Positions 6,338 to 38,100 of a DNA stretch of 38,993 nt are shown here, piece by piece. The stretch's first letter is position 1. Every line of letters begins with the position of its first letter. The stretch is from a virus. The stretch covers positions 1-38,993 of the IMG/VR virus record IMGVR_UViG_3300017788_000072, one strand, 5' to 3'. The notes beneath the pieces were generated by a model, which was not told the origin of the DNA, searched no databases, and saw nothing but the letters and a program-made list of their open reading frames with translations. Both the position numbers and the translations under genes were made by a program.

Positions 6338-6502
6338 TTAATCACAATAAGGATTACTTCCTTTAGCCCCTTTTCCTTTAGCCCCACTGACTAATCTTTT
6401 TGAAACAGGTCCTGAAGCACCTTTGATTTTTGGAACAGAGTTCCCGCTTGTACTCGGCATCTGCATACGAGATGAACCCGGTAAGTTAGGAGTTGACTTC
6501 AT
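6338..6502 (-). CDS. Small basic protein, TPNLP family copy 1
   Basis: 54 residues from the ATG at 6502: MKSTPNLPGSSRMQMPSTSG, with a Gly/Lys-rich tail (SGAKGKGAKGSNPYCD). The start is almost the same as that of the gene immediately upstream (MKNTPNLPMSSR), so the two are probably diverged tandem copies or share a common targeting peptide. Its ATG overlaps the stop of that gene as TAATG. No function known. Confidence 0.6.
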   Translation of the reverse strand: MKSTPNLPGSSRMQMPSTSGNSVPKIKGASGPVSKRLVSGAKGKGAKGSNPYCD

Positions 6503-6660
6503 TAGTACTTCTTTTTAGCAGCTGATTTAACAATTGCTTTAGCAACGCCTTTTGCAGCACCTTTTACTGCACCTTTTACCGCTGCTTTAGCAACAGTTTT
6601 CTTAGCACCTTTTGGAGCCACCAATCTTGATGACATAGGTAAGTTAGGAGTGTTTTTCAT
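6502..6660 (-). CDS. Histone H1-tail-like Ala/Lys protein, TPNLP family copy 2
   Basis: 52 residues from the ATG at 6660. After MKNTPNLPMSSRLVAPKGAK comes a run of AK/VK units (residues 21-52: KTVAKAAVKGAVKGAAKGVA and onwards) ending KKKY. This composition is close to the C-terminal tail of histone H1 and to bacterial histone H1-like proteins, so DNA compaction inside the capsid or a decoy role is plausible. That is inference from composition. It overlaps the next gene as TAATG. Confidence 0.6.
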   Translation of the reverse strand: MKNTPNLPMSSRLVAPKGAKKTVAKAAVKGAVKGAAKGVAKAIVKSAAKKKY

Positions 6661-8475: not shown

Positions 8476-8674
8476 AATTTTTAGATTCGTCTTGCCAATT
8501 AAACCAAAATCCAACAGCTACTATTATGTTCATACCAAATGAAGTTGCTATCTCAACTAAATCGTGATACACATTAACGCTTAGATGAACGTGCCCTACC
8601 ACCCAAAATGGAATTGATAGGTTGCACGCTATCCAAACTATTGTGAATCTAAAGAACCTCTTCAGTTTGCTCAT
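8459..8674 (-). CDS. Small membrane protein in the chaperonin operon
   Basis: 71 residues with a basic N-terminus (MSKLKRFFRFT) and hydrophobic segments at about 11-29 (TIVWIACNLSIPFWVVGHVH) and 44-59 (SFGMNIIVAVGFWF). The charged tail (NWQDESKNYDKGD) is probably cytoplasmic. Its start overlaps the groEL 3' end by 26 bases. Two-helix membrane proteins in phage operons may be superinfection-exclusion or lysis regulators, but nothing here shows which. Confidence 0.55.
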   Translation of the reverse strand: MSKLKRFFRFTIVWIACNLSIPFWVVGHVHLSVNVYHDLVEIATSFGMNIIVAVGFWFNWQDESKNYDKGD

Positions 8675-10271
8675 AACTACGAGCCATTGTTATAATTGCA
8701 TTTGTACTCAAGATTGTTACAGCCACACTTACTGCATTTTGCAATGCACTTCGAGTTACCTTCAACGGGTCAATAACCCCCATCTTAATTAAGTCTCCCA
8801 TCTTACCATTCTTCAGATTGTACCCTTGACCCTCCTCTATACCATCGGGATAGATGTCTTGTGCCTTCAATCCTGCGTTGGTAAGTATCTGTAAGAACGG
8901 AGCCATCAGTGCATCTTTCAAAATCAAACTCGCAATTTCTCTCTCTTCTGATTGCTCAGCAGTGGTCCCAATAACAGCACTTTCTTCAAGTAATGCTTTC
9001 CCGGCACCGGGTAAAATTCCCTCTTCAAGAGCTGAACGAACCGCACAAACAGCGTCATCAACCCTGTCATAAAGCTCTTTTTGCTCTAAATCAGTCTGAC
9101 CACCAACGTAAATTACGCCAATTCCTCCTGTAAGTGAAGCTATACGCTCTAATAAGAAGTCTTTATCGGCTTTTTTGGTAGCGTTTCTGTGTGATTCCCA
9201 CAATTGCTCCACTCTTTCTGCAATAGCATCTTCATCTGAACGAGCACCTGACTTAATAATCACAGTTTTATCCTTGCTGACAATCACTTTTGCTGCGTGC
9301 CCTAAGTCTCCGAAGTTGATAATACTCAAATCGTCTCCTGTTTTCTCACTGAAGTACGTTGCACCAACACTAATTGCAATATCTTGCATTAATTCGTGCT
9401 GTTTGTATCCGAAACTCGGAGGAGGAACTGCACATACTTTCAAATTTCCTTTAATTGAGTTAGCTGCCAAAGTGTTTATCACATTCGCATTACACGGAGA
9501 GATAATCAATAACTTTTTACCCTCTGTAATAATTGGTTTCAATACCTGCTCAATCTGCAAAATGTTTGCAATCTCCATATCAGCCACCAAAACCATAACA
9601 TCATCAAACACACACTCGTCCTTTTTGGTATCGTTGATAAACATCGGACTCAAATATCCTCTATCAAACTTCAACCCTTTAGTGGTCTCAGCATAAGTCT
9701 CATCGTTTTGACTTCTCTCAACAGTTACTATCCCCGTCTTACCAACATCTTTATACACCTCAGAGATAATACGACCAATCTCTCTATCGTTGTTAGCAGA
9801 AATACTCGCCACATCAATAAGCATTGAAGTCGATAGCCTCTTGCTCTTACGTTTTAAATTGTCCACCACTTTGTCGCTCAAGTCCACCAAATGTCTCAAC
9901 ACCTCAGTACGATTGTGATTGTATTTAATTCTACTCAACCCTCCCAATACCAAAGCCTCAGTCAAAACAATAGCTGTAGTAGTCCCGTCTCCTGCCGAAG
10001 TAGCAGTACGCTCTGCGGCTTCTTTCATCATCTTAACCGCAAGGTTCTCAACCGGGTCTATTAAGTCAATACTCTTAGCTACAGTTACACCGTCTTTAGT
10101 TACAGTAATCCCGTGTGTGTGATTCGGACTCTCAATAAGCACAGTGTTCCCTCCCGGACCCAATGTACTCTTCACTGACTTAGCCATTTTGGCTACACCA
10201 TTTGCTAATTTTTTTCTTCCTAACTCCTCAAAATGTAAATCTTTAGGAGAATAACCTTGATTTTGTGTCAT
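8649..10271 (-). CDS. groEL: Phage-encoded GroEL-type (group I) chaperonin
   Basis: 540 residues, close to the usual 548. It shows the chaperonin hallmarks: VKSTLGPGGNTVLIE (residues 33-47), ITVTKDGVTVAKSIDL (55-70), the nucleotide-binding SAGDGTTTAIVL (92-103), and near residue 395-420 RVDDAVCAVRSALEEGILPGAGKAL. The latter matches the bacterial VEDAxxATRAAVEEGxVxGGGxAL and keeps the catalytic Asp. The C-terminus ends SYEQTEEVL and lacks the Gly-Gly-Met tail. LEDKxEN of host proteins is LIDPVEN here, a sign of divergence. It would fold phage proteins in an ATP-driven ring with the GroES-like protein. Chaperonin genes are known in a few phages; a GroEL plus GroES pair is rarer. A TATATTTG promoter lies just upstream. 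Confidence 0.93.
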   Translation of the reverse strand: MTQNQGYSPKDLHFEELGRKKLANGVAKMAKSVKSTLGPGGNTVLIESPNHTHGITVTKDGVTVAKSIDLIDPVENLAVKMMKEAAERTATSAGDGTTTAIVLTEALVLGGLSRIKYNHNRTEVLRHLVDLSDKVVDNLKRKSKRLSTSMLIDVASISANNDREIGRIISEVYKDVGKTGIVTVERSQNDETYAETTKGLKFDRGYLSPMFINDTKKDECVFDDVMVLVADMEIANILQIEQVLKPIITEGKKLLIISPCNANVINTLAANSIKGNLKVCAVPPPSFGYKQHELMQDIAISVGATYFSEKTGDDLSIINFGDLGHAAKVIVSKDKTVIIKSGARSDEDAIAERVEQLWESHRNATKKADKDFLLERIASLTGGIGVIYVGGQTDLEQKELYDRVDDAVCAVRSALEEGILPGAGKALLEESAVIGTTAEQSEEREIASLILKDALMAPFLQILTNAGLKAQDIYPDGIEEGQGYNLKNGKMGDLIKMGVIDPLKVTRSALQNAVSVAVTILSTNAIITMARSYEQTEEVL

Positions 10272-12464: not shown

Positions 12465-13391
12465 ATGAGAGCAACAGCAAACACAGGAGTAGTGTACACA
12501 ACAACAGGAAACGGAAGCAGAGGGAGAGTACAGGGATACCACTACAAACCAAGCCCGTTATTTTTAAACAAGTCAGCCCACAGGGTAGATGTAGCGGGGT
12601 TGAAGCCAATCGACCAAAGAACAGCTATCAGGTTTGACGGGAGAGAGTACGAGAGCAAATTTACAATAGGCTTCGAGGTGGAGAAAAACAGCCTATCTCG
12701 AGGGGCTGTGAGAGAGTACGAATTGTTCTGCGGGTTTGAGACAGACAACAGTTGCGGGTACGAAGCAGTGACCCATATTTTACCGCTATTGCCTGCGGGT
12801 CAGTGGCGTACAAAGGTTTACGATATGATGTACAAAGCGGACAAAATCATCGATGACCAATACAGCCCAAGCGACAGAAGATGCGGAGGTCACGTAACAA
12901 TCGGGGTTGACGGGCTAAGCGGGGACGAGATTCGTGAAGCGGTACGCAAAAATTCAGGTATTGTTTTAGCCTTGTTCAGAAAGCGTTTAAACAACAAATA
13001 TTGCGGGGCTAATCGTAGAATGCAAAGCAACAACGATGACACGTTTAACAGCTACAGCCAATGCAATGACTACTACAGAACAGGTAATCATTGGAAATAT
13101 CAAACAGCCCTTGTAAAAGGCTCGTGCCTTGAGTTTCGCTTAGTGTCTAAATTTGAGAGCGTGAAGCAAATGATGAGACGATACGAGTTGTTTTATGAGT
13201 TGGTAAACTACAGCGTAAACAAGCCAAACGGAACGTTTGCGGGGTTTTTGAAAACTATCGAGCCAATCATTGTTTCGATGTACAACGGAGACAAGCAGAA
13301 AGCGGAGAGCGTTATGGAGTTGGCGAAGAGTTTCCAAAAGTTCATCAACACAGGGGCGATAAGCCAAGACATTGCAGAGTTCTTAGGGTAA
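12465..13391 (+). CDS. Amidoligase_2-like protein (glutamine synthetase fold)
   Basis: 308 residues. The conserved elements of COOH-NH2 ligases of the Amidoligase_2 group appear in order. FTIGFEVE (66-73) gives the first metal-binding acids E71/E73. FETDNSCGYEAVTHILPLLP (91-110) gives D94 and E100. RRCGGHVTIGV (138-148) is the CGxH motif. R174 and NKYC (177-180) follow. KGSCLEFRLVSKF (218-230) is the EFR strand found near the end of the fold, followed by a helical segment. Such enzymes join a carboxylate to an amine using ATP. The substrate is unknown. I recall that relatives are linked in genomes with glutamine amidotransferase genes, and one is present 3.4 kb downstream (16762-17874). The gene lies between a palindrome and the first hammerhead ribozyme. 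Confidence 0.72.
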   Translation: MRATANTGVVYTTTGNGSRGRVQGYHYKPSPLFLNKSAHRVDVAGLKPIDQRTAIRFDGREYESKFTIGFEVEKNSLSRGAVREYELFCGFETDNSCGYEAVTHILPLLPAGQWRTKVYDMMYKADKIIDDQYSPSDRRCGGHVTIGVDGLSGDEIREAVRKNSGIVLALFRKRLNNKYCGANRRMQSNNDDTFNSYSQCNDYYRTGNHWKYQTALVKGSCLEFRLVSKFESVKQMMRRYELFYELVNYSVNKPNGTFAGFLKTIEPIIVSMYNGDKQKAESVMELAKSFQKFINTGAISQDIAEFLG

Positions 13392-13406
13392 CACCTAAGG
13401 GCTTTG

Positions 13407-13457
13407 CCCGTCCCTAAGTGAGTGCTTAGGCTGATGAGTCCGAAAGGACGAAACGGG
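13407..13457 (+). ncRNA. Hammerhead ribozyme 1, type III
   Basis: The full core is present. Helix III is CCCGT (13407-13411) with ACGGG (13453-13457); the site is GUC, predicted cleavage after C13412. Helix I is CCTAAG (13413-13418), loop TGAGTG, CTTAGG (13425-13430). CTGATGA is at 13431-13437. Helix II is GTCC (13438-13441), loop GAAA, GGAC (13446-13449). GAAA is at 13450-13453, its last A closing helix III. It lies 15 bases after the stop of the amidoligase gene and 19 bases before the next ATG (13477). A GGGC-ttt-GCCC hairpin (13399-13409) overlaps its 5' arm and may compete with helix III. Confidence 0.93.
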
Positions 13458-13476
13458 AACATTTAAAATCAATCTT

Positions 13477-13668
13477 ATGAAAGCAGAAATTTGTTTAAAA
13501 TCGTTTAGTGTAGCAGTTATTTATTTGGCTATTGCCTTAGGTTTAACCTCAGGTTATTTACAGCAGTTCGTTAAGTTTAATTCAGTTGACAGCGAAATCT
13601 TTATGGCTTTGCTAAGCGGTACGTTTGGGCTTCTATGCTTAGGCGTTTCAATCAAGATAAAGCGATGA
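13477..13668 (+). CDS. Small two-helix membrane protein
   Basis: 63 residues: MKAEICLKSFSVAVIYLAIA begins with a hydrophobic segment at about 9-28, a polar loop (QQFVKFNSVDSE) follows, then a second hydrophobic segment at 41-58 (IFMALLSGTFGLLCLGVSIK). It ends IKIKR. It sits between hammerhead 1 and hammerhead 2, so it would be translated from a short fragment released by self-cleavage. No family recognised. Confidence 0.65.
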   Translation: MKAEICLKSFSVAVIYLAIALGLTSGYLQQFVKFNSVDSEIFMALLSGTFGLLCLGVSIKIKR

Positions 13669-13707
13669 TAGTGCGGTAACGTAAAGGTCGAGGAGGGCAA
13701 ACCTCCT

Positions 13708-13758
13708 CCCGTACACAAGTGAGTGCTTGTGCTGATGAGACCAAGAGGTCGAAACGGG
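13708..13758 (+). ncRNA. Hammerhead ribozyme 2, type III
   Basis: Helix III is CCCGT (13708-13712) with ACGGG (13754-13758); the site is GUA, predicted cleavage after A13713. Helix I is CACAAG (13714-13719), loop TGAGTG, CTTGTG (13726-13731). CTGATGA is at 13732-13738. Helix II is GACC (13739-13742), loop AAGA, GGTC (13747-13750). GAAA is at 13751-13754. Helices I and II differ from copy 1 by paired changes that keep base pairing, which supports selection on RNA structure. An AGGAGG-gcaaa-CCTCCT hairpin (13691-13707) abuts its 5' end. The next ATG (13779) is 20 bases downstream. Confidence 0.93.
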
Positions 13759-13778
13759 AAACTTTAATTTAATTTACT

Positions 13779-13973
13779 ATGACAAATTCAGAATTAGTGT
13801 CTTTAAAGACACAGGAACAATGGACAAAATTTTGCAATCTTATGGAAAGAGTTAGCAACATTTATCAAGCAGACACCGAAAGAATGGACAGGGCTTACAA
13901 CATTATTCGCAACAATGTAGAGCAGATGTATAAAGCCAAACAGCCTGTAAACACAGGGGTTAACAAACTTTAA
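13779..13973 (+). CDS. Small helical protein of unknown function
   Basis: 64 residues, mostly helical and charged (EQWTKFCNLMERVSNIYQAD, RMDRAYNIIRNNVEQMYKAK). The palindrome copy at 13797-13812 lies inside its first codons and is read as VSLKT. It follows hammerhead 2 by 20 bases and is followed by a new promoter at 13994. No family recognised. A later in-frame ATG exists (residue 22), but the first start has the same AT-rich leader as its neighbours. Confidence 0.55.
   Translation: MTNSELVSLKTQEQWTKFCNLMERVSNIYQADTERMDRAYNIIRNNVEQMYKAKQPVNTGVNKL
13797..13812. repeat. 16-bp palindrome variant inside a coding region
   Basis: GTGTCTTTAAAGACAC: same arms with TA at the centre, a perfect dyad. 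It starts 18 bases after the ATG at 13779. Confidence 0.85.
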
Positions 13974-13993
13974 CAAATTATTAACACTTTAAA

Positions 13994-14026
13994 TTTGGTA
14001 CGTGTCTAATTATCGTCTTATATTTG
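13994..14026 (+). promoter_or_regulatory. Bacteroidota-type promoter, copy A
   Basis: TTTG at 13994-13997, 21 bases, then TATATTTG at 14019-14026. The spacer carries GTGTCTAATT and GTCTTA, blocks also found in the spacer of the promoter at 16662-16693. The predicted start near 14032 gives a leader of about 30 bases before the ATG at 14064. Confidence 0.75.
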
Positions 14027-14063
14027 TCGAAAATTAGTTCATTAACCTTAAAAATCAAACACT

Positions 14064-14600
14064 ATGAGACAGATTACAGAACAGGTTGTCGGTGCTTTCA
14101 ATAGAGGGCAATCAAAAAAAGTAGGCAACACAGAGACAGACGGAATAAGCCTTTGGCTATTCGGCAACAAAATTGCAGAACATAGCGAGGGTGGAATATG
14201 GATTACTAATGCGGGGTGGAAAAGCCCAACAACGAAAGAAAGACTAAACGGGATTACAGGCGTACACGTTACGCAAAAGAAAGGCGAGTGGTACCTAAAC
14301 GGGCATCGTTGGGACGGAGAGTGGATTTGCTTGAATGACTTGACCTTGCTTGAGGCACAGGCAAACGAGCCTGAGTTCGATACCACAATGGAGTGGGTAG
14401 AGACCTACAGCAAACCGAAATACGCAGTGTTTCATACACACGTAGAGGCGGACTTACAAGACCTTGAGCAAAGGTTGAATTACTTAGGGATACCTACACG
14501 CAGAATGTATTCAGACACAGAGGGCAGATACAAGCCTAACCATTTTATCGTGGTGCCTGTAACAGAGTTTAACAGAGCAAAAACTTTAATCAATAACTAA
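14064..14600 (+). CDS. Conserved phage/plasmid protein (DUF8033-like)
   Basis: 178 residues. Residues 1-100 carry a pattern I recall from a widespread small family, possibly listed as DUF8033: an N-terminal helix (ITEQVVGAFNRGQSKKVGNT), ISLWLFGNKIAEH, IWITNAGWKSPTTKERLNGI, and VHVTQKKGEWYLNGHRWDGE. The rest (101-178, ending PNHFIVVPVTEFNRAKTLIN) looks like a separate small alpha/beta domain (FHTHVEADLQDLEQRLNYLG). Function is unknown. It has its own promoter upstream and a palindrome right after the stop. Confidence 0.7.
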   Translation: MRQITEQVVGAFNRGQSKKVGNTETDGISLWLFGNKIAEHSEGGIWITNAGWKSPTTKERLNGITGVHVTQKKGEWYLNGHRWDGEWICLNDLTLLEAQANEPEFDTTMEWVETYSKPKYAVFHTHVEADLQDLEQRLNYLGIPTRRMYSDTEGRYKPNHFIVVPVTEFNRAKTLINN

Positions 14601-14603
14601 TCA

Positions 14604-14619
14604 GTGTCTTTGAAGACAC
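14604..14619. repeat. 16-bp palindrome at a gene junction
   Basis: Perfect GTGTCTTTGAAGACAC, three bases after the TAA of the previous gene and 15 bases before the ATG at 14635. Confidence 0.9.
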
Positions 14620-14634
14620 ACAAATATTAAAACT

Positions 14635-14862
14635 ATGGGGGCAACAAAAAAACTAATGACACCTTACTTAGCTTCGGCTATCGCAGAGGGATTCTGTGAG
14701 GGAGAAAACGCAACAAGAGAGCAACAGATTGAGGCGTGGCAGTATTTACACGACACAGGACTTGCCTACAGCCTACAGGGTTGGTATGGACGCACAGCGA
14801 AGGCTTTACTTGAGGAAGGAATTATTCACGATAAAAAAAAAGCAGATGAGAGCAATACTTAG
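14635..14862 (+). CDS. Small conserved phage protein (LQGWxGRxA motif)
   Basis: 75 residues. The segment IEAWQYLHDTGLAYSLQGWY followed by GRTAKALLEEGII (residues 31-63) is a pattern seen in many phages and plasmids (AWQxLxDTGxxxxLQGxxGRxAxxLIxxGxI). It is probably a small helical domain of unknown role. The acidic tail ends DESNT. Its start has the same AT-rich leader as other genes of the array, and it is followed by the type I hammerhead. Confidence 0.7.
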   Translation: MGATKKLMTPYLASAIAEGFCEGENATREQQIEAWQYLHDTGLAYSLQGWYGRTAKALLEEGIIHDKKKADESNT

Positions 14863-14910
14863 ATTCTTAGAAGAGTTAGCAAAGACTTGTCCGAGAGAGA
14901 CACGTTGGTA

Positions 14911-14968
14911 GGCAAACTGATGAGACTTCAATAGTCGAAACCTATGTGAGTTCGCATAGGTCTTTGTC
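14911..14968 (+). ncRNA. Hammerhead ribozyme 3, type I
   Basis: Open helix I is GGCAAA (14911-14916) with TTTGTC (14963-14968), including one G-U pair. CTGATGA is at 14917-14923. Helix II is GACT (14924-14927), loop TCAAT, AGTC (14933-14936). GAAA is at 14937-14940. Helix III is CCTATG (14941-14946), loop of 8, CATAGG (14955-14960), then U14961 pairing with A14940. The site is GUC, predicted cleavage after C14962. Here the ribozyme stays on the upstream RNA, and the downstream fragment starts 27 bases before the ATG at 14990. The other three copies are type III. Confidence 0.92.
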
Positions 14969-14989
14969 AAACAATTAAAAATCAATATT

Positions 14990-15214
14990 ATGGAAATCTA
15001 TCAAATCAACACAACAGCGTACAAAGAGGAGGACTTTACCCTCCTCACAGACCTAACTGAAGACCAAATCACAGAGGTAATCAATCCTTTGGTAATGGCT
15101 GAGCGAGACGGCTACGAAGAGTATGACAATGAGACTTTGGTGGAGGCGTTGCAGAAACGCTTTCCTAAAAATACCATCAAAATGTTTCCGGAGGTGGTTC
15201 GCTTAGTTTACTAA
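14990..15214 (+). CDS. Small acidic protein, paralogue of 18188-18415
   Basis: 74 residues: MEIYQINTTAYKEEDFTLLT, then DLTEDQITEVINPLVMAERD and YDNETLVEALQKRFP. About two thirds of the first 60 residues match the protein at 18188-18415 (YKVNTTAYEEEDFFLLTDLS...VMAERDG...EYDNEMLLEALRKRYP). It is therefore one of two copies within 3.5 kb. Strongly acidic, mixed alpha/beta. The ends differ. It lies between hammerhead 3 and hammerhead 4. Function unknown. Confidence 0.7.
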   Translation: MEIYQINTTAYKEEDFTLLTDLTEDQITEVINPLVMAERDGYEEYDNETLVEALQKRFPKNTIKMFPEVVRLVY

Positions 15215-15220
15215 TGAGTT

Positions 15221-15236
15221 GGGGGAGTACTCCCCC
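15221..15236 (+). other. Perfect GC hairpin next to hammerhead 4
   Basis: GGGGGAGTACTCCCCC, a 16-base perfect palindrome ending exactly where helix III of hammerhead 4 starts. No T-run follows, so it is not a standard terminator. After self-cleavage it would lie 7 bases from the new 3' end of the upstream mRNA and may protect it. Confidence 0.7.
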
Positions 15237-15289
15237 TTCTGTCCCTGAGTGTGTGCTCAGGCTGATGAGTTCAAAAGAACGAAACAGAA
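15237..15289 (+). ncRNA. Hammerhead ribozyme 4, type III
   Basis: Helix III is TTCTGT (15237-15242) with ACAGAA (15284-15289); the site is GUC, predicted cleavage after C15243. Helix I is CCTGAG (15244-15249), loop TGTGTG, CTCAGG (15256-15261). CTGATGA is at 15262-15268. Helix II is GTTC (15269-15272), loop AAAA, GAAC (15277-15280). GAAA is at 15281-15284. All three helices differ from copies 1 and 2 yet remain paired. A second hairpin follows downstream (15290-15313). Confidence 0.93.
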
Positions 15290-16661: not shown

Positions 16662-16693
16662 TTTGGTAGTGTCTAATTTTTGTCTTACCTTTG
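16662..16693 (+). promoter_or_regulatory. Bacteroidota-type promoter, copy B
   Basis: TTTG at 16662-16665, 20 bases, then TACCTTTG at 16686-16693. It shares with copy A (13994-14026) the flanking AAATTTGGTA, the spacer blocks GTGTCTAATT and GTCTTA, and TTTGTC with an A-rich stretch after the -7 box. The predicted leader to the ATG at 16762 includes the palindrome at 16723. Confidence 0.75.
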
Positions 16694-16761: not shown

Positions 16762-17874
16762 ATGTGCGTAATTATCGTAAAAAAACAAGGACTAAAAGTT
16801 CCAACAGATGTATTAAAATCATCAGCAAAAATCAACCCTCACGGATTGGGTATTGTATGGCTTGACGACTACAAAGTTAGCTATCACAAATCAGCAGAGT
16901 ACAACGTTCTTAACACCGACAGACCTTTCATTGCTCACTTTAGGTATGCTACCGTTGGGGCTGTAAACAAATCAAACACACACCCGTTTGTATGTGGCTC
17001 AAACACCAACGAGTTGCTTATGATGAATGGTACAATTAAAGGGCTTGGAAACCACAAAGACAGCGACAGCAAGGTATTGGCTCAGTCTCTTGGAGAAGTA
17101 CCACGACACCTGTGGAAAAAAGAATTAGAGCGTTACGATTGTAGATTCGTTACACTAAACACACGTAACAAATCTTATCAGATGTACAACCGAGAGGATT
17201 GGCATTTCAAGGACGGAATTTGGTACAGCAAAGACAATGTACTTGAGACCAACTATGTGGCTGTGTATGGTACCCTAAAAAAGTACTACAGCAATTATTG
17301 GAATTACCTAACAGGCTCAACGCTTGTAGGTAGTGGACAGACACAGGACAAGTATCCGCTTATCATCAAAGGCTTGCCTTATCTAATCAACAAGAGAGGC
17401 ATAGGTCATAACGTAGATGTAGATGTATTCAGAGTTACCGACAGAGTTCTTAAAGACTTAGATGCGTTAGAAGGACACCCTAAGTGGTACCGAAGAGAGC
17501 AGATTTATATTGATGTGAAAGGCAGAAAAGTATTGTGTTGGATTTACTTTAACTTGCGTGAGACAGACATAGGACAGGTACACCATAAGACATACATTCA
17601 AGCGTCTAAGAGTTGGTTTAAAACCTCTCCTTACAAGTGGCAAGTGCCTACTACAAAAATCAATCAGACATTGTTCGACATAAAACCTCAGCCCTACTTT
17701 GACGACTTCAAAGATGTGCCTGAGGTAGAAGATGAGTTCGATGTAGAGAATGAAACGCCTATGTGTATAGCCTGTTACAACGATTTAAAGTTTGACGGAT
17801 TCAGCCATTACTATTGCGACCAATGTAATACTTGGCACACAGAGAGCGATACACTAAAAAGTTACAGATACTAA
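16762..17874 (+). CDS. Class II glutamine amidotransferase / gamma-glutamylcyclotransferase / zinc-ribbon fusion
   Basis: 370 residues from the ATG at 16762. An upstream in-frame ATG at 16723 lies inside the palindrome and is not used here, because Cys2 must become N-terminal. Domain 1 (1-160) is a class II amidotransferase: MCVIIV with catalytic Cys2, FIAHFRYATVGAVNKSNTHPF (56-76) and LLMMNGTI (85-92). Domain 2 (about 165-295) is a GGCT/AIG2-like cyclotransferase: VAVYGTLKKYY (166-176) and LDALEGHPKWYRR (233-245) with candidate catalytic Glu237. Domain 3 is a zinc ribbon, C335-x2-C338...C352-x2-C355. The parts suggest glutamine-derived ammonia transfer plus cyclisation or release of a gamma-glutamyl group. 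With the amidoligase at 12465 this may be a peptide-modification pathway. Substrate unknown. Confidence 0.82.
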   Translation: MCVIIVKKQGLKVPTDVLKSSAKINPHGLGIVWLDDYKVSYHKSAEYNVLNTDRPFIAHFRYATVGAVNKSNTHPFVCGSNTNELLMMNGTIKGLGNHKDSDSKVLAQSLGEVPRHLWKKELERYDCRFVTLNTRNKSYQMYNREDWHFKDGIWYSKDNVLETNYVAVYGTLKKYYSNYWNYLTGSTLVGSGQTQDKYPLIIKGLPYLINKRGIGHNVDVDVFRVTDRVLKDLDALEGHPKWYRREQIYIDVKGRKVLCWIYFNLRETDIGQVHHKTYIQASKSWFKTSPYKWQVPTTKINQTLFDIKPQPYFDDFKDVPEVEDEFDVENETPMCIACYNDLKFDGFSHYYCDQCNTWHTESDTLKSYRY

Positions 17875-17880
17875 TCGGGA

Positions 17881-17896
17881 GTGTCTTCAAAGACAC
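17881..17896. repeat. 16-bp palindrome at a gene junction
   Basis: GTGTCTTCAAAGACAC, six bases after the stop of the fusion gene and 20 bases before the ATG at 17917. Confidence 0.9.
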
Positions 17897-17916
17897 TCTC
17901 ACAAACCTTAATCAAG

Positions 17917-21487: not shown

Positions 21488-22233
21488 TGGCAGAAGTTAA
21501 CCCACAAATACTTGAGTTATTAAAAAATGACCAAGAATATTACGGAGGAGTTGGAAAGAATTACTTATCTAATTCAGACATTGGAACCCTACTTAACAAT
21601 CCAAAAGAGTTTGGAAAGGAAAGAGAAGACAACAAGGCTTTTATGGAGGGTAGATACTTTCATCAGTTGATTCTTGAGCCTGAGAAAACTAAAGGTATTC
21701 TGTACGTTGATGCGAGTACACGCACAACTAAAATCTACAAAGACTTCTGTGAAGACCATAACTTGCCGTTCTGTTTACTACAGAAAGAAGTTGAAGATAT
21801 TCAGAAACTTGTAGGCATTATCAATGGAAACATTGCTTTCTTTGAAGAGTTATACAAAGCAGGAAATCAATATGAGGTGCCTGCTGTTGGAGAGATTCAA
21901 GGAATGATGTGGAAAGGAAAGGCAGATATTGTAACAGACAACGCAATCATCGACCTAAAGACCACCTCAGACATTGATAAGTTCAAATGGAATGCTAAGA
22001 AGTACAACTACGATTCTCAATGTTATATCTATCAGATGTTATTCGGGAAACCTTTAGTGTTCTATGCTATTGACAAAACAACAGGAGTTCTCGGTATATT
22101 CAGACCAACTGAGGAGTTTATCAAATCAGGAGAAGAGAAAGTAGGAAGAGCTATTGAGGTATTTAATAAGTACTTCGGAGACAATCCAACTGACGACATT
22201 GAGAATTACTATATTGATGAATATTTGTTTTAA
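21487..22233 (+). CDS. PD-(D/E)XK exonuclease (RecE-like)
   Basis: 248 residues. GRYFHQLILEPEK (55-67) gives the conserved His59 of RecE/Cas4-like nucleases. WKGKADIVTDNAIIDLKTTS (142-161) gives Asp147 and Asp156-x-Lys158, the PD-(D/E)XK core. Q178 and the Tyr residues of NYDSQCYIYQM (174-184) form the end of the site. It is expected to degrade one DNA strand and feed the annealing protein encoded just upstream. Length and motif order fit the DUF3799-type phage exonucleases. The stop is followed at once by a palindrome. Confidence 0.85.
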   Translation: MAEVNPQILELLKNDQEYYGGVGKNYLSNSDIGTLLNNPKEFGKEREDNKAFMEGRYFHQLILEPEKTKGILYVDASTRTTKIYKDFCEDHNLPFCLLQKEVEDIQKLVGIINGNIAFFEELYKAGNQYEVPAVGEIQGMMWKGKADIVTDNAIIDLKTTSDIDKFKWNAKKYNYDSQCYIYQMLFGKPLVFYAIDKTTGVLGIFRPTEEFIKSGEEKVGRAIEVFNKYFGDNPTDDIENYYIDEYLF

Positions 22234-28778: not shown

Positions 28779-29181
28779 AACCGAACAAGATTTAATCAGA
28801 GAAAAAAAAGCAATACAAACTTTCGTAAATATGTTTGGAGGCTCATTTAAGAAACTTGACCCATACGATATTGATTACAAAGTATTTGACAAAGACGGAA
28901 ACCTAATAGCCTACGCAGAGGTTAAAGGAAGAATTAAAACCATATACAACGCATATCCACTTCCTGTTGCTGCAAGAAAATTGGTTAAGTTGGTAGATAA
29001 AAGATTAGCTCCTGTGGTTATATGGGCTTGTGAAGATGGGATAATATATGGAAAGGTAGATAAATTAAAAGGAGAAATCAAGTGGGGAGGAAGAACCCAA
29101 CGAGATAACTCCTTTAATGACCAAGAACTTTTGGTTTATTATGAAAAACAGAAAGAACTAAAGTACGTTAGATATGCCTAA
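28768..29181 (+). CDS. PD-(D/E)XK-like nuclease
   Basis: 137 residues. The centre, DIDYKVFDKDGNLIAYAEVKGR (34-55), gives Asp36 and Glu51-x-Lys53, the restriction-endonuclease-like core. The N-terminal helix (TEQDLIREKKAIQTFVNMFG) carries the Glu of the first helix. Residues 75-137 form the remaining sheet (RLAPVVIWACEDGIIYGKVD). Probably a DNA nuclease of replication or host-DNA breakdown. It is the last gene of the plus-strand operon and overlaps the convergent giant gene by four bases. No terminator is visible between them. Confidence 0.65.
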   Translation: MTFETEQDLIREKKAIQTFVNMFGGSFKKLDPYDIDYKVFDKDGNLIAYAEVKGRIKTIYNAYPLPVAARKLVKLVDKRLAPVVIWACEDGIIYGKVDKLKGEIKWGGRTQRDNSFNDQELLVYYEKQKELKYVRYA

Positions 29182-32100
29182 TCGTACTTTGATTTTCTTT
29201 CACTGCTTCTTGTAACTGTAGTTTTTACACCGTCTGAATCATAGTATTCGTACTTACTATTATAACTTGACTGTGAGCCTGAATCTGAAGAACTTTTTGA
29301 GCTTGAAGAATATTTCTTGCTTGAAGAATATTTCTTGTATGTTCCATCAGAGTTCTTTTTTCTTTTCTTTTTAGGAACGTATCCAAATTCTTTGTCTTTA
29401 TCTTCTCTTTTCTTTTCTTTGAATATTTTATCTAATTCTTTTTCAGGTTTAGATAACTCATAGTACTCAGAACCTTCTCCAAAATTCTTCTCGTATAATT
29501 CAGGATTATATCTTTCTAAATCTGTAAGATTTTCATATACAGTTCCTGTTTCTTCATCTACAAGAAGTCTTTTCTTCATATCTTCAAGCTCATCTTTTTC
29601 TTCTTGATATTTTTCAGGATTTTTAACCCTGTCTAACATAGCTTCAGCAGATTCTACTTCTTCAGGACTTGTAGCTTCGTCAACCATTTTCTGTATCAAC
29701 TCAACTTGCTCTCTCATCTCTCTAATCTCTTCAGTAGTAGCCCCTTTTTTCTTGGCTATTCTAACAACATTTCTTCCGACAGTAGCTACTTCAGGACTCG
29801 CTAAACCTGTAACGTTTGCAACTAATACAGGTGCAATCATTTGAGTCAACGCTTGTCTGTTTTCTTCAGATATTTGTTTTGTTTTACCAAAATCATCTTT
29901 ATACTCTCCTGTTGCAGATAAAGATATTAAATTCCAAATCTCATCAATTCTGTTTGCTGCTATACCAAGTGTCCCTAATGAACTAACAAAATCTACTTTT
30001 TTAGAAGTGTAAATATTCTTTATGTCTTTATCGTCAATACCAAAACCTTTTTGTATTGATTCAAAAATAAACGCACCATTGTCCTGAACAAATTTATCAA
30101 GAACAGGAAGTGGAGAGAATATATCAGTAACAGTCGATGTTACAGCACCCTTAACAATGGCTTCTCTTCTTTTTTTCTTTTCTTCTTCATCATCTCCTTT
30201 ACCCATCAAAGATGCTGCAAGGCTCGCAAGACTTATAGCTATTCCGGCAGATATTGTTCTAAATACAGCCATCTCAACAGCGTATCCTGCTAATGAACGG
30301 GCAGCAATCTTTTTATCCTCAGCTGTAGATACGTCCCAATTTGAAAGAACCCTTAAATCAGAACCTAATCTTGACCCTTGGTTCATTCTAAAACTCGCAA
30401 AAGGCATAAATATCTTCATCAATAATTGAGACTTAGGATTTCTGTCAGAGAAAAATGCACCTGCCATATCTGTATCAGAAACGTTTTGTTGTCTATCTAC
30501 CTGTTTTTGAGCGTAGTCAGCAGCTTTTTGATTTATTTCGTGATTAGAATAGTCAATACCTTTAGTATCTATACCTTGGTCTCTTAAACCTTGTTCATAG
30601 AAAGACTTCCAAGAAGATATTGCAACCCAAGCATCAGGCTTTGTTAAGAATAATTTTAACCATTTTTTGTTTGCATCTTCAATAAGTTTTACAAACTTCG
30701 CACCTTTTGATTCAGCAGCCTGTTCTATTAATTGGTTTATAGAGTCAATATCAGCTAAAGACTCAACACCTCTGTTTGCTATAGCATATCCCGATTCATT
30801 AAGCCAAGTCATAAAATCCTTGTTGGACATAGCTGAAAAATCTATGTTTCCTTTAGCATTAATAAGCGTGTTGAAAACCACAGGCACAACCTGTTTTAAA
30901 GGTTGAGTTGGACCGGCTAAAGCCTGACTAACTCCAAGTGTAGCAATCTTGTTTAGACCTCTCATAGCCTTAGCAAATTCGTCATTAGAATAAGGATTCT
31001 TGTTTCTAATGTTTTGAATGTATTGCTGAACTCTTCCTATGTTTGATTTTGTTCCTTTTATTAAATCAGCATCTACTCCAAATATCTTTCTAAAGTCAGC
31101 TGTATTCATAAATGCCTCAACTTGTCTAATTGGTCCTGCTGTATTAATATCAACAAGAGCATCATACATAGAGTTTGAATTGTTTTTATCAAAAGATAAA
31201 TCAATATATGACTCTGCCTCTTTGCTGTCTTTATTTTTAGGCAACTCCTCAGGACGAGTGGCTTCCATTAATACGCCTGTCTCTTTCTTATAAAGATTTC
31301 CATTTGTATTTGTTATAAAAGCAGACGCTGTATTTGCTAAATCAACACTTCCTCCATCATAGCTCATTCTTGTAAATCTATCAGGAATATAGTTTAAGTC
31401 TTTATCTAATACTTTATTGTAAATGTTTACAGCGGTATCAGAAAGCTCATCAAATTTACTGTCCCACTCTCTTACCCAAAAGTCAACTGCTTCTAAATTG
31501 GTTGGGTCAACCTTAGATTGAACATCACTTACATTTGTAGAACCGTCAAGAATCTTGTCATACACTTGTTGATAAGCCAACGCCTTTTTTCTTTCTTGTT
31601 CATTACCTTCCGAAAGAACCTCTATTGACTCTTCAATAAGTTTTTTTCTTCTATCAAACTCAGCTTGCATTTCAGCTTCTGTTCCTATAATACTTCTACT
31701 AACAAAAGCAGTCATACCTCTTTCAACATTATTGAATAATGTATTAAACTTTTGATTGTTTGCTTTCTTGTTATAAAACTCAGCAACATAATTAGATACA
31801 ATATTATTTGTTTGTCTTTGAGCATTTGATTTTCCATTAATCAAATCGGTAAGACCCATAGCATCTCTTACTTTACCTGAGCGATTAAAACCAACAAACA
31901 TTTTTTCAAAAAGAATGTTTAAGTTAGTGGTTTGTTCTCCCAAGAATCTACCAAATCTTGTTGACCATAGTTTTCTTAAAGGAACAGCTGTTATACCATC
32001 TCTTCTAATCTTGGCTGCATTTTGTTGTCCTGTATATTTACGAACAACAGCTTCCATTTTAGCTGTAGATTGGTTAGTCAAAAAGTTCATCAATGAATCA

Positions 32101-35100
32101 ACCGCAGCCAACGAATCTTTTACACTCATTTTGTCGGTATCCATATTCATAAACTTCTTAATTAATTCTTTCTGAGCTTTAGTATATTCAACATCTTCAT
32201 CTGTAAATATATCTTTTCCGGTGCTTATAGACTCTTTAATGACAGCTGAGTAAACATCGAAAGCTCTTTTAATAGTAGCTCTTACAATTCCCTCGTTGTA
32301 TTTGTTAGTCTTAGCCTCAGGCTCCAATAAAGCTAACATCTCTTCTGCACTAAATTCAGACGCATCTACACCCATTAACTCTTGCAATTCAGCAATTCTT
32401 TCTTCACGAATTTTTTGCTCTTGCTCTTTTAATGTTTTTGAAATATAGTCTGTAGCCTCCTTTATGTTTGTGGTTTCAGCAAACTTAACTTTTTGACCTC
32501 TAATAGAAGAGCCTGTTACAGCTTCTTTTAGTTTAGCGGCTACTTCGTTATAAGTCTCAATATCCTCTACTAATGCAGGGTCAATATTCACAAATTGAGC
32601 GGCTGCAACTCTTAGGTTAGCATTTTTATCTTTGTTTTTAGATAATTTCTTCAAGTTACTTCTAAGACCTTTAGCTTCTTTTATCTTAGCGGCATAGTCT
32701 GCATTCTCAAATACTTTAGCCATATAGTTAGTAAACCTATCTACAGACTTAGCACTGAATACATTTACTTTACTGAAAGCACGAATAATATTAGCCGCTT
32801 GGTCAGCGGTAATTTTTCCTGATTGCTTTAGCTCTTTGACATCTTTACTAAGTTGTTGACTTGCTAATCTGAAAGCTCTAACAGCATCTCTCGCACCTCT
32901 TGCCAAATCTCTAATCTGTTTTTTAAGAGCTACCTTTTCGTTCATTGTAATTTTTTTGACATCTTTAATCTTGCCAAATAATTTTGCAACTGACGGAGCC
33001 GCTTTCTCTCTTAAACCAAATCTCTTTCGTATATCACGCACTAAAGCCTCACGCTGTACATCTGTGGCATCTTCATAAACTTTTGAGCCCATAACATAGC
33101 TCAAAACATTATCAGCTGTCTTAGCCTCGCTTACGCCTCTTCTTTTAGATTTCTGTACGATACCTTCAACCTCTCCCATCATTCTGTCATATCCGGGTAA
33201 GTCTTGTTCGTTAAGTTCCTGACTTATTGGTTGGGTAGATTCCTGTGTTTCAGGACTCTGCTCAGAAACTTCATTTTCTGAGTCAATATCTAATTCAAAC
33301 TCAAGCCTTTTTACAGCTTGTTGCTTCATCACTTCTTCTGCTTTTTCGTAACCGTCTTTGTCGAAAGACTCCGTATTTGCTTTTTCATAATTTTGATACA
33401 AATCGAATAAACCTAATCTATTTTCTATAGTATTTCTATCTCCACCATCATAAATAAAGAATACTACATCGGGTCTTCCATCGTTAAAATCTCGGTAAGT
33501 TTCGTAATCCCAATCTTTTACTGCATTGCCATTAGCAATCATTGGTTTATACGCATCGTTGAAAGCTGTTCTTGATACTGCTTTGAATCCAAATTTTGAA
33601 TAGTAATCAGGAAGAATCGTATCAAAAGCCTCAGCAGTAGTAGCTCCTTCTTTAATGCCAATTACCATTAATTGAGCTAAATTTTGAGGTCTTTTTGCAT
33701 TTGGGTCAGAAAAAGCACCTCCTAAAAATCCTTCTTTTGTAATTGTAATTCCTGTAGAACCGTCTTCTGTTACAAACATTCTCATTCCGTTGAAATCTTC
33801 TGCGGAATGAACAGTAACTGATGCAGCGTATGGATTGTCCTTTAAGGATTCTTCCATCATTTTTCTATAAACATCTCCATTAGTTACTTCGTATATTTTT
33901 TGCACTCCTTTAAATTTAGGAAATGCTTTTTTTATACCTTCGTCTATTAAGTCGTCTAAAGTGTACTCTGCTATTACATTTAAGTCAAATACTCCAATTT
34001 TTCTAACCTCTTGTAGGCTTCTTTTATTGACTCCCCTCGTTCCGCTGCTCTTCTTAGAATAGGTCTCCAATAATCCGGATAAGTCATCAGCTCTTCGATT
34101 TGGTCTTGAGTCAATTTCTTCTTGTTCACTGATTCTTCTTGCTGTTTCATACCTCTTAAAGTTAAATTTTGTTGGGAATATCCCTATTTTAGGTTCTGCA
34201 AATTTAAACAATTTATCTGCCTTTTTAAACAATTCTTCTGCTTCTTTTGTTTTCCCTTGTTTTATAAGCTCTCTCGCTTGTTTTCTTAAATCATTAGCTT
34301 CTTTATTTACTCCACTGAAATTAACCCAAGAGTTCTGTCCTCTTGTTTGAAAAATAACAGCAGGAGCAGCTTCATCACTATATAAGTCAAGGTGTTGTAA
34401 TGTAGCATTTTCTTCTCCTATAGCCCCAAACTGATTACCCAATATTCCGTGTCCGAAATAATCGTGAACAATTCTAAACACTTCTGAATTTGTTAATTCA
34501 TATCCATCTTCTAATTTTATACCACTTGGTTGTAAACCTATGTTATCAGACACGTCAGTATTTCCTTGACCAAAAGCAACATCGTTAGGCAAGAATTTAA
34601 GAGTATTGTTTTCTCTTATGTCTTTCAGCATTTCTTGTGAGTTGGCATAAGGCTCTCCTACTCCATCGTGCTTTATCACTTTCAGTCCTTTGCCTACTAT
34701 AAATTCATATTGTTTTTTCGTTTCATAGACAAGGGCATCATAGGCATTTTTTACTTCTTGTTGTGTTGGTTCATTCTTGATAGCTTGATAAGCGTCAGCA
34801 ATCATTTTCGATACTCTTTCAAAAAGTTTAGGCTGCGGTGGATTTACTCTTTCAGGTTGATAGCTTTTTTGTTCTTTTCTTCTTTCCTCAGTAATTTTAT
34901 CTCTATATTCTTGAGCGACTTGTTGAACAGATTCAACACCCTCATTGAATGCAGTCCTTCCTGATTGAGTTACTTCTTGAACCGGACCTTCTGTTTTTGT
35001 TTCTACAGTTTCTACATCGTTAGGTTGTGTCTTTGAAGACATTTTCTTGATTTCTCTTTTTAGTATTTTTATAGCTTGTTCTTTAGTGAGATTTCCTTTT

Positions 35101-38100
35101 CTTTGAACTGAAACTGTAGAGCCTTTACCTTGTTTTGCTTCTGCATCAAATCCTGAATCAGAAATTCTTGCATCAGGATATGTTACAGTATATGTGTCTC
35201 CTATTTTAGATATAAATACATTTTCTGCAACTTGTAAAGGATAGCCGACTTTATTTTCATCAGAATTGGCTTTATCATCTATTTCTGCTATAAATTCTTC
35301 AGCAGTCTTAGTAGGTATTTCAGGTTGTGTCTTTGAAGACACTTGTTCTTCGATGATAGTTTGCGGTTGAGTTACCTCAACTGTTGGTGCTAATGAATTT
35401 TCAACAGCCTGCACTAATTCAGCATTACTACCTTCTTCCTTAGCTCTATGATAAGCCTCTGCTACGGATTGAGGGTCGTTTCGATTCCAAGTTATTATCC
35501 CTTCATTGTTAAGGTCAATAGGAGAAAGAGGTATATTTCTTTCTTCTACAGGCAAACTTTCCAATGCCTTGGCTGTACTCTCTACATCTCTTAATGGTTG
35601 AACTATTTCTTCTTGCGTACCTTGTTCGGTAAAGACTTCAGGTTTTGGTTCGGATACTCTTTCCTCCACCGTTTCGCTAATTCCGGTTTCTGACTGAACA
35701 GGAACTTCTGTTGTGCTTTCGATTTGAATGGCATCTTCTTCTTCGTTTAAAAGGTTAGTTAATTCTTCTGTTGTTAATTCAGCTTTGAGTTTTTCATCAA
35801 CTATTTGTTTTAGTTCATTTCCAATCTCTTCATCATTCTTAACACTTATTGCTGAGCGAAGCATACGTCTTGCACTCATACTACGTGTTTTTTCTAAAAA
35901 CTGTTCCTTGGTATATCTTATACCATCAATCATATATTGAGAAACTCCTTGCTTAGTAGTTCCTAAAGTTTTACTTAAATCAATTGATTGCTCTTCAGGA
36001 GCTAACTCTTTAGTATCAGCAATAACTTTTAATTCCTCGTTAATAGCTTTTATCTTATCGGCATACAGCTCCTTTCTGTTTGTTGAAGATGATAACTCTT
36101 CTTTGGCAGACATAAGCTCCATAGTTCTTGCCAAAACACTTGGCTTAATTGTATTTTCATTTGTACCTACAGATAATGCTTCTCTTGCTTCTCTTCTTAG
36201 ACCTACATTCTCTTGTATGCGTTGATTAACATCAGCATCAATTTTCCCAAGCTGTTGCATATTGTTAGCCCAAGTCGATATTCTTTCATCAGAAGCAGAC
36301 TCAGTACCTACAAAGTTAACATCTGTCAGATTGTTAGCAATATTTATATCTGTGTTGTTTTTAATAGTTCTATAGGTATTAATAGCCATATTAGAACTAT
36401 TGTTCCCTAAACCACCCATAGCTTCTGCCGATATTTCTTTCCAATCAATTTCTTGACCTGCTGTAACCTGAGCTGCAAGTTCTCCTGTGGCTTCAGCTAA
36501 AGGGTCAAATACAGCACGTTCAGTTGTTTGTAAAGCAACTTTTCTTCCTGTACTTGTTAAAGCACTTGTTGGTTTAAATACTTTACCCGCAAGTCCTGCT
36601 GATAAGTAATCAACAACTGCAATCGGAATACCTCTTTTCAAACCTCTTTCTCCTCCTTCTGCCCAAATCTCTTCTTGGCTTAATGCTTGCTCTACTTGAT
36701 TAGGGTCTGTAATGTCATACCCTTTCTCTTTCATAACATCAAGTACAGAGTTTGTATATTCCATAGCTAAACTCGTAGCAGCCATACCTGTTCTGAAACC
36801 TTGAATACCTCCTGTTAAAGCCCCACCGGGAACTGTTATTTCTGCAAATGGACCTCCCAACAATCCTGTTACAGCTCCTGTTCCCGCTCCTGCTGCTGTT
36901 GTAGCAGGAACTATTTTCATTCCGTATGGTAATATTTGACTCAAACTTGTAGCAGCCATAGTGGTCATAAGCTCAAAAGGATTATCTAAGAAAGCGTCTA
37001 ATCCTTCAGCAAAGCCTGATGCCTGTTGCCAACGAGCCATAGCTCTACTTGAGTTAGGAGATTGATTTGTTAAGTTCTCAACTATTATTCGGGCAGCTTC
37101 AGCCTTGTCTGTTTTGCTGTTTACATCTTTCAATCCTAATGTAAATGCCAATATCTGCTCAGCAGCTTTACCGTTTTTATAAGCATCACTAACTGAGTTT
37201 GAGAATGCAGACCAATTGTCCTCGTACTCTCCTTTAATTTGCTTGTTTACTTTAGCATCAAAATATGTTTTTGCATTCTCATATTTTTTAGCCGCAAAAC
37301 TTTGAGTTAATTTAGCATCTTCATACAGCTTTATGACGTTGTTTTTGTTGATAGCCTCTTGTTCATTTTTTGGTTTATACTTCATCAAATCCTTAACAGA
37401 TAATCCGAACATATCCACAGACTTAACTTCAGCGTCTTGAGCTTGAACTTTGGCTTTTGCGTTTAACTGAGCAGCCTCTTTAGCTACTACGTTTTGTTTT
37501 TTATCTAAATATTCATCAAACTCTTCTCTTGTTTTTTGAATTTTTCCTTCAGAAATAAATCCGGCATCAAATACTTGACCTCTTAATTGTTCTTCTTGAG
37601 CTTTATATTTTTCTAAAAGTTTATCAATATCTGAGCGAAATCTTCCATTTACAAGTAATTGAGCATATTTTTGAGCACGCTCATCACTTCCTATGGTTCT
37701 ATCGTTTCTTCTTTCTTCAATAAAATCAACCATATCTCTAACTTTCACATACTCTTCGTATGCTTTTTTATTAGCCATATAGTCAAGACCTCTTTGCTTA
37801 TAGAATTTATCAGCCTCTATATCTACAGGGCTAACATCTTTCCACGCTCCTTTAGCGAATTGTTTTGCTTCTTTATCGGTCTTAAACTCAAATACCTCTC
37901 CTCTTTCTCTTGCTAATTTAAGAGCTTCTTTAAATGGAAGTTCAGTCCACGAGTTTGGATTCGTAGAATAGCTATTTGGGTCTTTAGGAAATAAAGTTGG
38001 TATTACTTTGAATTTACCGTCTTCTTCAAAAGAAGTAAACTTAACAGTAGATGTACTTCCATCAGGATTTAATCTTCCAACTTTTCTAAGTTTTTGAGCT

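Follow-up and report, generated by a model that had tools for sequence, protein, structure and literature searches.

Clusters of hammerhead ribozymes in prophages, together with the proposal that they process mRNA, were published in 2011 for Clostridium scindens, Azorhizobium caulinodans and Agrobacterium tumefaciens (PMC3088659). Those clusters flank single genes and cleave in vitro, and the A. tumefaciens ribozymes also cleave in E. coli (PMC3088659). The role of bacterial and phage hammerheads was called unknown in a 2017 review (PMC6155905) and again in a 2023 paper (PMC10085705). Here, four hammerheads in the 38,993-base IMG/VR virus record IMGVR_UViG_3300017788_000072 (the window, meaning the whole stretch analysed) were characterised and compared with these systems. 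The window is a lone virus contig and probably a fragment of a larger genome, since many relatives measure 60-65 kb. Compared with the 2011 clusters, it belongs to another phage lineage, one with relatives among Flavobacterium phages; type I and type III ribozymes are mixed in one array, a hairpin stands before each type III cut, the ribozymes are anchored to upstream genes, and U.U core variants occur in relatives. In the main text of the 2011 paper terminators are unmentioned, and two uses of 'hairpin' concern other matters. Judged against open-licence papers, the U.U class, the hairpin rule and the tie to upstream genes are new, and clusters and the processing idea were known. We consider it fairly probable, from what the sequences hold, that the four elements act as self-cleaving makers of mRNA 3' ends.

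Ribozymes were identified with a descriptor requiring CUGANGA, GAA with A15.1-U16.1, an H17 other than G, and no fewer than 4 base pairs (bp) in each of helices I, II and III. Exactly four sites were found in the window, all on the plus strand (Table 1), against an average of 0.005 in shuffled windows scanned on both strands. The core (C3 U4 G5 A6 N7 G8 A9, G12 A13 A14, A15.1-U16.1 and H17) is complete in all four copies and of the standard form. Ribozymes 1, 2 and 4 are of type III, with helix I closed, and ribozyme 3 is of type I, with helix III closed. An earlier note on this DNA had placed four hammerheads here by reading the letters; the descriptor recovered all of them with coordinates within one base, and the four cut positions it had given were correct. 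No further hammerheads were found in the window, where core-like strings at 22109, 24402 and 27861 on the plus strand and two on the minus strand do not fold as hammerheads.

An Rfam search at the gathering level annotated none of the four. In E-value mode, ribozymes 1, 2 and 4 scored 21.3, 18.0 and 42.5 bits with RF00008 Hammerhead_3 (gathering cut-off 48.5), and ribozyme 3 scored 32.1 bits with RF03152 RAGATH-1-hammerhead (cut-off 56.3). The earlier note had named background scores for all four as the result that would speak against it; the search did not return this, though Rfam alone would annotate none. Ribozymes 1, 2 and 4 share the core, helix order and cleavage site of Hammerhead_3 and differ from it in their scores below the cut-off, a short loop I of 6 nucleotides (nt) and a loop II of 4 nt, so that type III architecture is claimed for them and RF00008 membership is not. 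Ribozyme 3 resembles RAGATH-1-hammerhead in its type I order, its core and a leading small stem, with a score below the cut-off. The loops are near constant, loop I being UGNGUG and loop II NAAA, mostly AAAA or GAAA, a conservation that would suit a tertiary contact between the two loops. A type III model built from relatives gave 75-77 bits for the three window type III copies, which are themselves among its building sequences.

For comparison, 34 related phage contigs (numbered with the prefix L, as are other fetched records) were collected using the 308-residue protein of gene c1, which lies upstream of ribozyme 1. The type III model matched 33 of the 34 full related records, with one to four copies each, and these copies lie in the sense strand; many loci hold a single copy. 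When the relatives were searched for the bare core at a fixed 12-nt spacing, whatever the state of the helices, 85 sense and 5 antisense sites were obtained. Helices I and III are paired at the sense sites and not at the antisense ones; sense sites that seemed unpaired were one base out of register, owing to a loop I of 7 nt or less. Over 60 type III copies the covariation score was 0.743, compared with 0.250 after shuffling and 0.067-0.131 for slid structures. Twelve of the 15 helix pairs are changed on both sides, which bears out the statement in the earlier note that the helices vary yet stay paired; type I copies were judged by the descriptor only. The alignment used here was chosen from in-register core-only hits, which favours the percentage paired, and the bare-core search is less biased in this respect. 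We hold it as nearly certain that the four elements are genuine, selected hammerheads.

The type III copies are associated with a hairpin that ends a few bases ahead of the predicted cut. Before 58 distinct type III copies in the relatives the mean stem score was 23.9, against 11.1 in shuffled sequence and 12.9 at 231 ribozyme-free junctions, and the hairpin ends no more than 5 nt from N16.2 in 54 of the 58. In type I copies no upstream hairpin was found (0/10, none above the 95% level); in these copies the place of the hairpin is taken by helix III itself, whose end lies at the cut. Among phages fetched by pattern, mostly from outside the lineage, the hairpin accompanies 73-78% of type III copies with G-C at 10.1/11.1. 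The hairpins vary widely; some are capped by UUCG or GAAA loops, and many include the phage's own palindrome GTGTCTTYRAAGACAC, which has nine copies in the window against 0.00004 expected and in relatives often forms the hairpin before the ribozyme. In L151 helix III of a type I copy contains the same palindrome, and in L027 and L096 another palindrome serves both upstream of type III and in type I helix III. Because one palindrome can serve in both positions, the constant feature is the predicted product, an upstream RNA ending in a hairpin whichever permutation of the ribozyme makes it.

Intrinsic terminators were considered and rejected for these hairpins. They are alike in that a stable hairpin follows the stop codon and would form the 3' end of the message; they are unlike in that a U tract is absent here, hairpins 1, 2 and 4 running instead into CCGTC, CCGTA and TTCTGTC (helix III), the ribozyme follows directly, and the end would be made by cutting and not by polymerase release. 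A switch in ribozyme 1, based on the CCTAAG/CTTAGG common to a hairpin arm and helix I, was also rejected, as it is not conserved: in L158 the hairpin is retained although helix I differs.

Gene clustering around the sites ties the ribozymes to particular upstream genes. A ribozyme stands directly 3' of c1 in 27 of 31 non-redundant loci, followed by 18 different next genes, and directly 3' of the second conserved gene, c3, in 17 of 26 loci, followed by 9 different next genes; most other frequent gene families have no ribozyme after them. Across 87 junctions the following genes fall into 44 clusters and the preceding genes into 22. This comparison favours the 3' end of the preceding gene as the putative conserved partner, and not release of the downstream gene. 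A weak match in fold between the c1 protein and the glutamine synthetase / glutamate-cysteine ligase group raises the possibility that c1 and c3 act in a single pathway, which is offered as a lead only; Pfam and PDB sequence searches with the 308-residue c1 protein gave nothing useful. In MW202828, a complete circular relative, the gap between c1 and c3 is 152 nt and no hammerhead was found near them, and in other relatives 0.85-3.8 kb of variable small genes lie between the two.

The anatomy, the covariation, the sense-only placement at junctions, the hairpin rule and the upstream-gene link are properties of the sequences themselves; from these we infer cleavage in the cell, protection of the ends and an effect on expression. 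Transcription would pass through the gene array, and each ribozyme would cut the nascent RNA shortly past the preceding gene. The upstream message would keep a 2',3'-cyclic phosphate with a hairpin at its very 3' end, formed by the separate hairpin beside helix III in type III and by helix III itself in type I. The downstream message would start with a 5'-OH and, for type III, with the helix I hairpin. Both ends would be expected to resist exonucleases and 5'-end-dependent decay, and the messages of the conserved enzyme genes would thereby be uncoupled from the variable small cargo genes. The hairpin rule and the upstream-gene link turn the question of role into simple tests of transcript ends and stability.

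Several observations weigh against 3'-end formation as the role. When ribozymes 1 and 4 are folded together with their flanks by RNAfold, neither minimum-energy structure is the complete hammerhead; the centroid structure of ribozyme 1 is. In other phages the hairpin is found with 57% of U.U copies, and U.U copies of L198 and L193 are without it. A promoter-like site lies inside the array, between ribozymes 2 and 3. At the junction after c3, the window has a hairpin and no ribozyme, and L127 and L128 have a hairpin and a U.U hammerhead at the orthologous junction, ahead of a similar gene; the window has lost the ribozyme and kept the hairpin, which makes the ribozyme dispensable at one junction.

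The same hairpin could alternatively be a folding aid, stacking on helix III, shielding the ribozyme from upstream sequence or helping product release, with cutting serving to free the leader of the downstream gene. The hairpin does abut or overlap the outer helix III pairs, a gene follows every copy, and the median distance from the cut to the next start codon is about 65 nt. Against this, the upstream hairpin is missing from type I copies, even though their open helix I would call for equal shielding, the following genes vary far more than the preceding ones, and the window retains the hairpin after c3 where the ribozyme is missing. We regard this explanation as unlikely. Regulatory switches answering an ion, a metabolite or a protein are very unlikely: the retained U.U and A.A variants alter a reported metal-binding position (G10.1), and a manganese-preferring phage core variant is known (PMC7151607), yet a sensing domain is lacking, the short loops hardly vary, and all window copies have the standard core.

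It is somewhat more improbable again that the fragments between ribozymes are joined into circular or spliced RNAs, either through reverse cleavage or by a host RtcB-type ligase acting on a 2',3'-cyclic phosphate and a 5'-OH. Same-strand pairs 0.3-1.3 kb apart would yield compatible ends by known chemistry, and hammerheads make circular RNAs in retrozymes and viroids (PMC7761336, PMC4918200). Perreault et al., however, detected no spliced or circular products when they looked for them with clustered phage hammerheads (PMC3088659), many loci have only a single copy, and the 3' hairpin would be left unexplained. Chance matches or decayed relics without function, a reading to which the scores of all four copies below the Rfam gathering level might lend some weight, were rejected on the counts in shuffled windows, the bare-core search and the covariation score, with intact cores retained across dozens of phages; we give it a negligible probability.

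The relatives also carry a variant core. At 10.1/11.1, the base pair adjoining the core, 69 of their type III copies have G-C and 16 have U.U, with nothing between (U.U examples are L126:9232 and L127:13018). Ribozyme 2 of the window has G-C; in L126, whose c1 is nearest to that of the window (88% identity), the orthologous copy has U.U. The c3 protein tree implies at least four changes of the U.U label, which was used as a hint only; two tree labels had been missed by the search pattern, L139 having G-C and L150 a damaged core. A scan with the cleavage nucleotide left free placed the U.U form in 109 IMG/VR stretches, and with 10.1/11.1 left free the matches listed comprised 49 G-C, 33 U.U (about 39%) and 3 A.A among 85 phage sites of the same loop class. 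The cleavage nucleotide differs between the classes, with C98, A28 and U1 for G-C, A68, U10 and C2 for U.U, and U6 and C1 for A.A. The Fisher value for this link, 9e-27, comes from a count that pools scans aimed at G-C and at U.U, and it overstates the strength, since kinship among the phages makes the samples non-independent. The coupling has exceptions: G-C occurs with U17 in 9 of 29 copies on bacterial genome contigs, many of them Patescibacteria metagenome-assembled genomes.

It is quite possible, if short of probable, that phage hammerheads form a general 3'-end module of hairpin and cutter, of which a large share carries U10.1/U11.1 with A or U at position 17 and a rarer A/A form mostly U17, so that 10.1/11.1 covaries with the cleavage nucleotide. 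If true, the two sites would be coupled in the active ribozyme, either structurally or through a metal ion. G10.1, part of the A9/G10.1 metal site, is a reported position of metal-ion binding, and the known phage core variant prefers manganese (PMC7151607); the U.U variant offers natural material for the study of that site. Mispairs such as U.U at 10.1/11.1 were rejected by the criteria of the 2011 survey (PMC3088659), and because the variant fails these published criteria, surveys using them would undercount phage hammerheads.

Table 1. Features of the window, with positions numbered from its first base.
Feature	Position	Strand	Remarks
Hammerhead 1	13407..13457	+	type III, predicted cut after C13412
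Hammerhead 2	13707..13759	+	type III, predicted cut after A13713
Hammerhead 3	14911..14968	+	type I, predicted cut after C14962
Hammerhead 4	15237..15289	+	type III, predicted cut after C15243
Hairpin before ribozyme 1	13374..13407	+	14 bp including G-U pairs; overlaps c1 stop codon
Hairpin before ribozyme 2	13690..13708	+	
Hairpin before ribozyme 4	15221..15236	+	
Helix III of ribozyme 3	14938-14961	+	would be the 3'-terminal hairpin of the upstream RNA
Hairpin 3' of c3	17877..17900	+	no ribozyme
GTGTCTTYRAAGACAC copies	5495, 12433, 13797, 14604, 16723, 17881, 22235, 26818, 35327		some inside genes
c1 gene	12465..13391	+	308 amino acids (aa), precedes ribozyme 1; fold weakly matching the glutamine synthetase / glutamate-cysteine ligase (COOH-NH2 ligase) group
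Small gene	13477..13668	+	63 aa, no assigned function
Small gene	13779..13973	+	64 aa, no assigned function
Promoter-like site	13995..14026	+	Bacteroidetes type (TTG, then TAnnTTTG); consensus match only
c6 gene	14064..14600	+	Kyano_Gp96 domain
Small gene	14635..14862	+	75 aa, phrog_3908
Small gene c7	14990..15214	+	74 aa
c3 gene	16762..17874	+	amidotransferase-like and gamma-glutamyl cyclotransferase domain; no ribozyme 3' in window

The predicted cuts lie 21, 45, about 100 and 29 nt past the preceding stop codon for ribozymes 1 to 4. Ribozymes 1 and 2, and likewise 3 and 4, flank one gene, and ribozymes 2 and 3 flank three genes and the promoter-like site; the junctions 13973|14064 and 14600|14635 have no hammerhead. 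As in clustered phage hammerheads, several sense-strand copies thus lie around single genes or short gene blocks. The earlier note had called the tight cluster at successive junctions unusual: four copies in 2 kb are indeed at the upper end among fetched loci (maximum 5), but two junctions carry no copy and clusters were already published in 2011 (PMC3088659). Its suggestion that the ribozymes cut an early mRNA into single-gene units holds in so far as processing of a polycistronic transcript is the best reading, and has to be modified for the piece between ribozymes 2 and 3, which holds three genes.

The promoter-like site resembles a second one at 16663-16693 (TTGGTA...GTCTTAnnTTTG), and both are also present in L126; they would initiate transcripts ahead of c6 and of c3. 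In L151 (~6469-6523), L155 and L156 (~10995), c3 is followed by a tRNA-like element that lacks an anticodon arm, where the preceding hairpin differs between lineages and other relatives have a hammerhead at the same junction. RNase P might, speculatively, cut the tRNA-like element there. The array resembles tRNA punctuation by RNase P and RNase Z in that an intergenic RNA element would set transcript ends, and differs in that the cut would be self-catalysed and the tRNA-like element lies outside the window, in relatives only; neither tRNA nor transfer-messenger RNA was found in the window.

Elsewhere in the window, on the minus strand, are a phage-encoded GroEL-type chaperonin (8649-10271) and an open reading frame of 3262 codons (29178-38966), of which a 1000-residue piece (29181-32180) had no PHROGs match. 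Cultured Flavobacterium elemoviruses, whose host is Flavobacterium sp. BAL314, have one type III hammerhead at MT497017.1:19081-19139 (L005:4281-4339), just 5' of the first rightward gene and absent from the listed annotation. Type III hammerheads of the same loop class occur in many contigs of Patescibacteria (candidate phyla radiation, CPR), including L344, L345, L348, L351, L352, L354-L356 and others. Long arrays in other phages are mostly of type I, with 8 descriptor hits in 10.8 kb in L295 and 5 each in L198, L193 and L247, and in these phages a ribozyme precedes successive genes having Shine-Dalgarno-like leaders.

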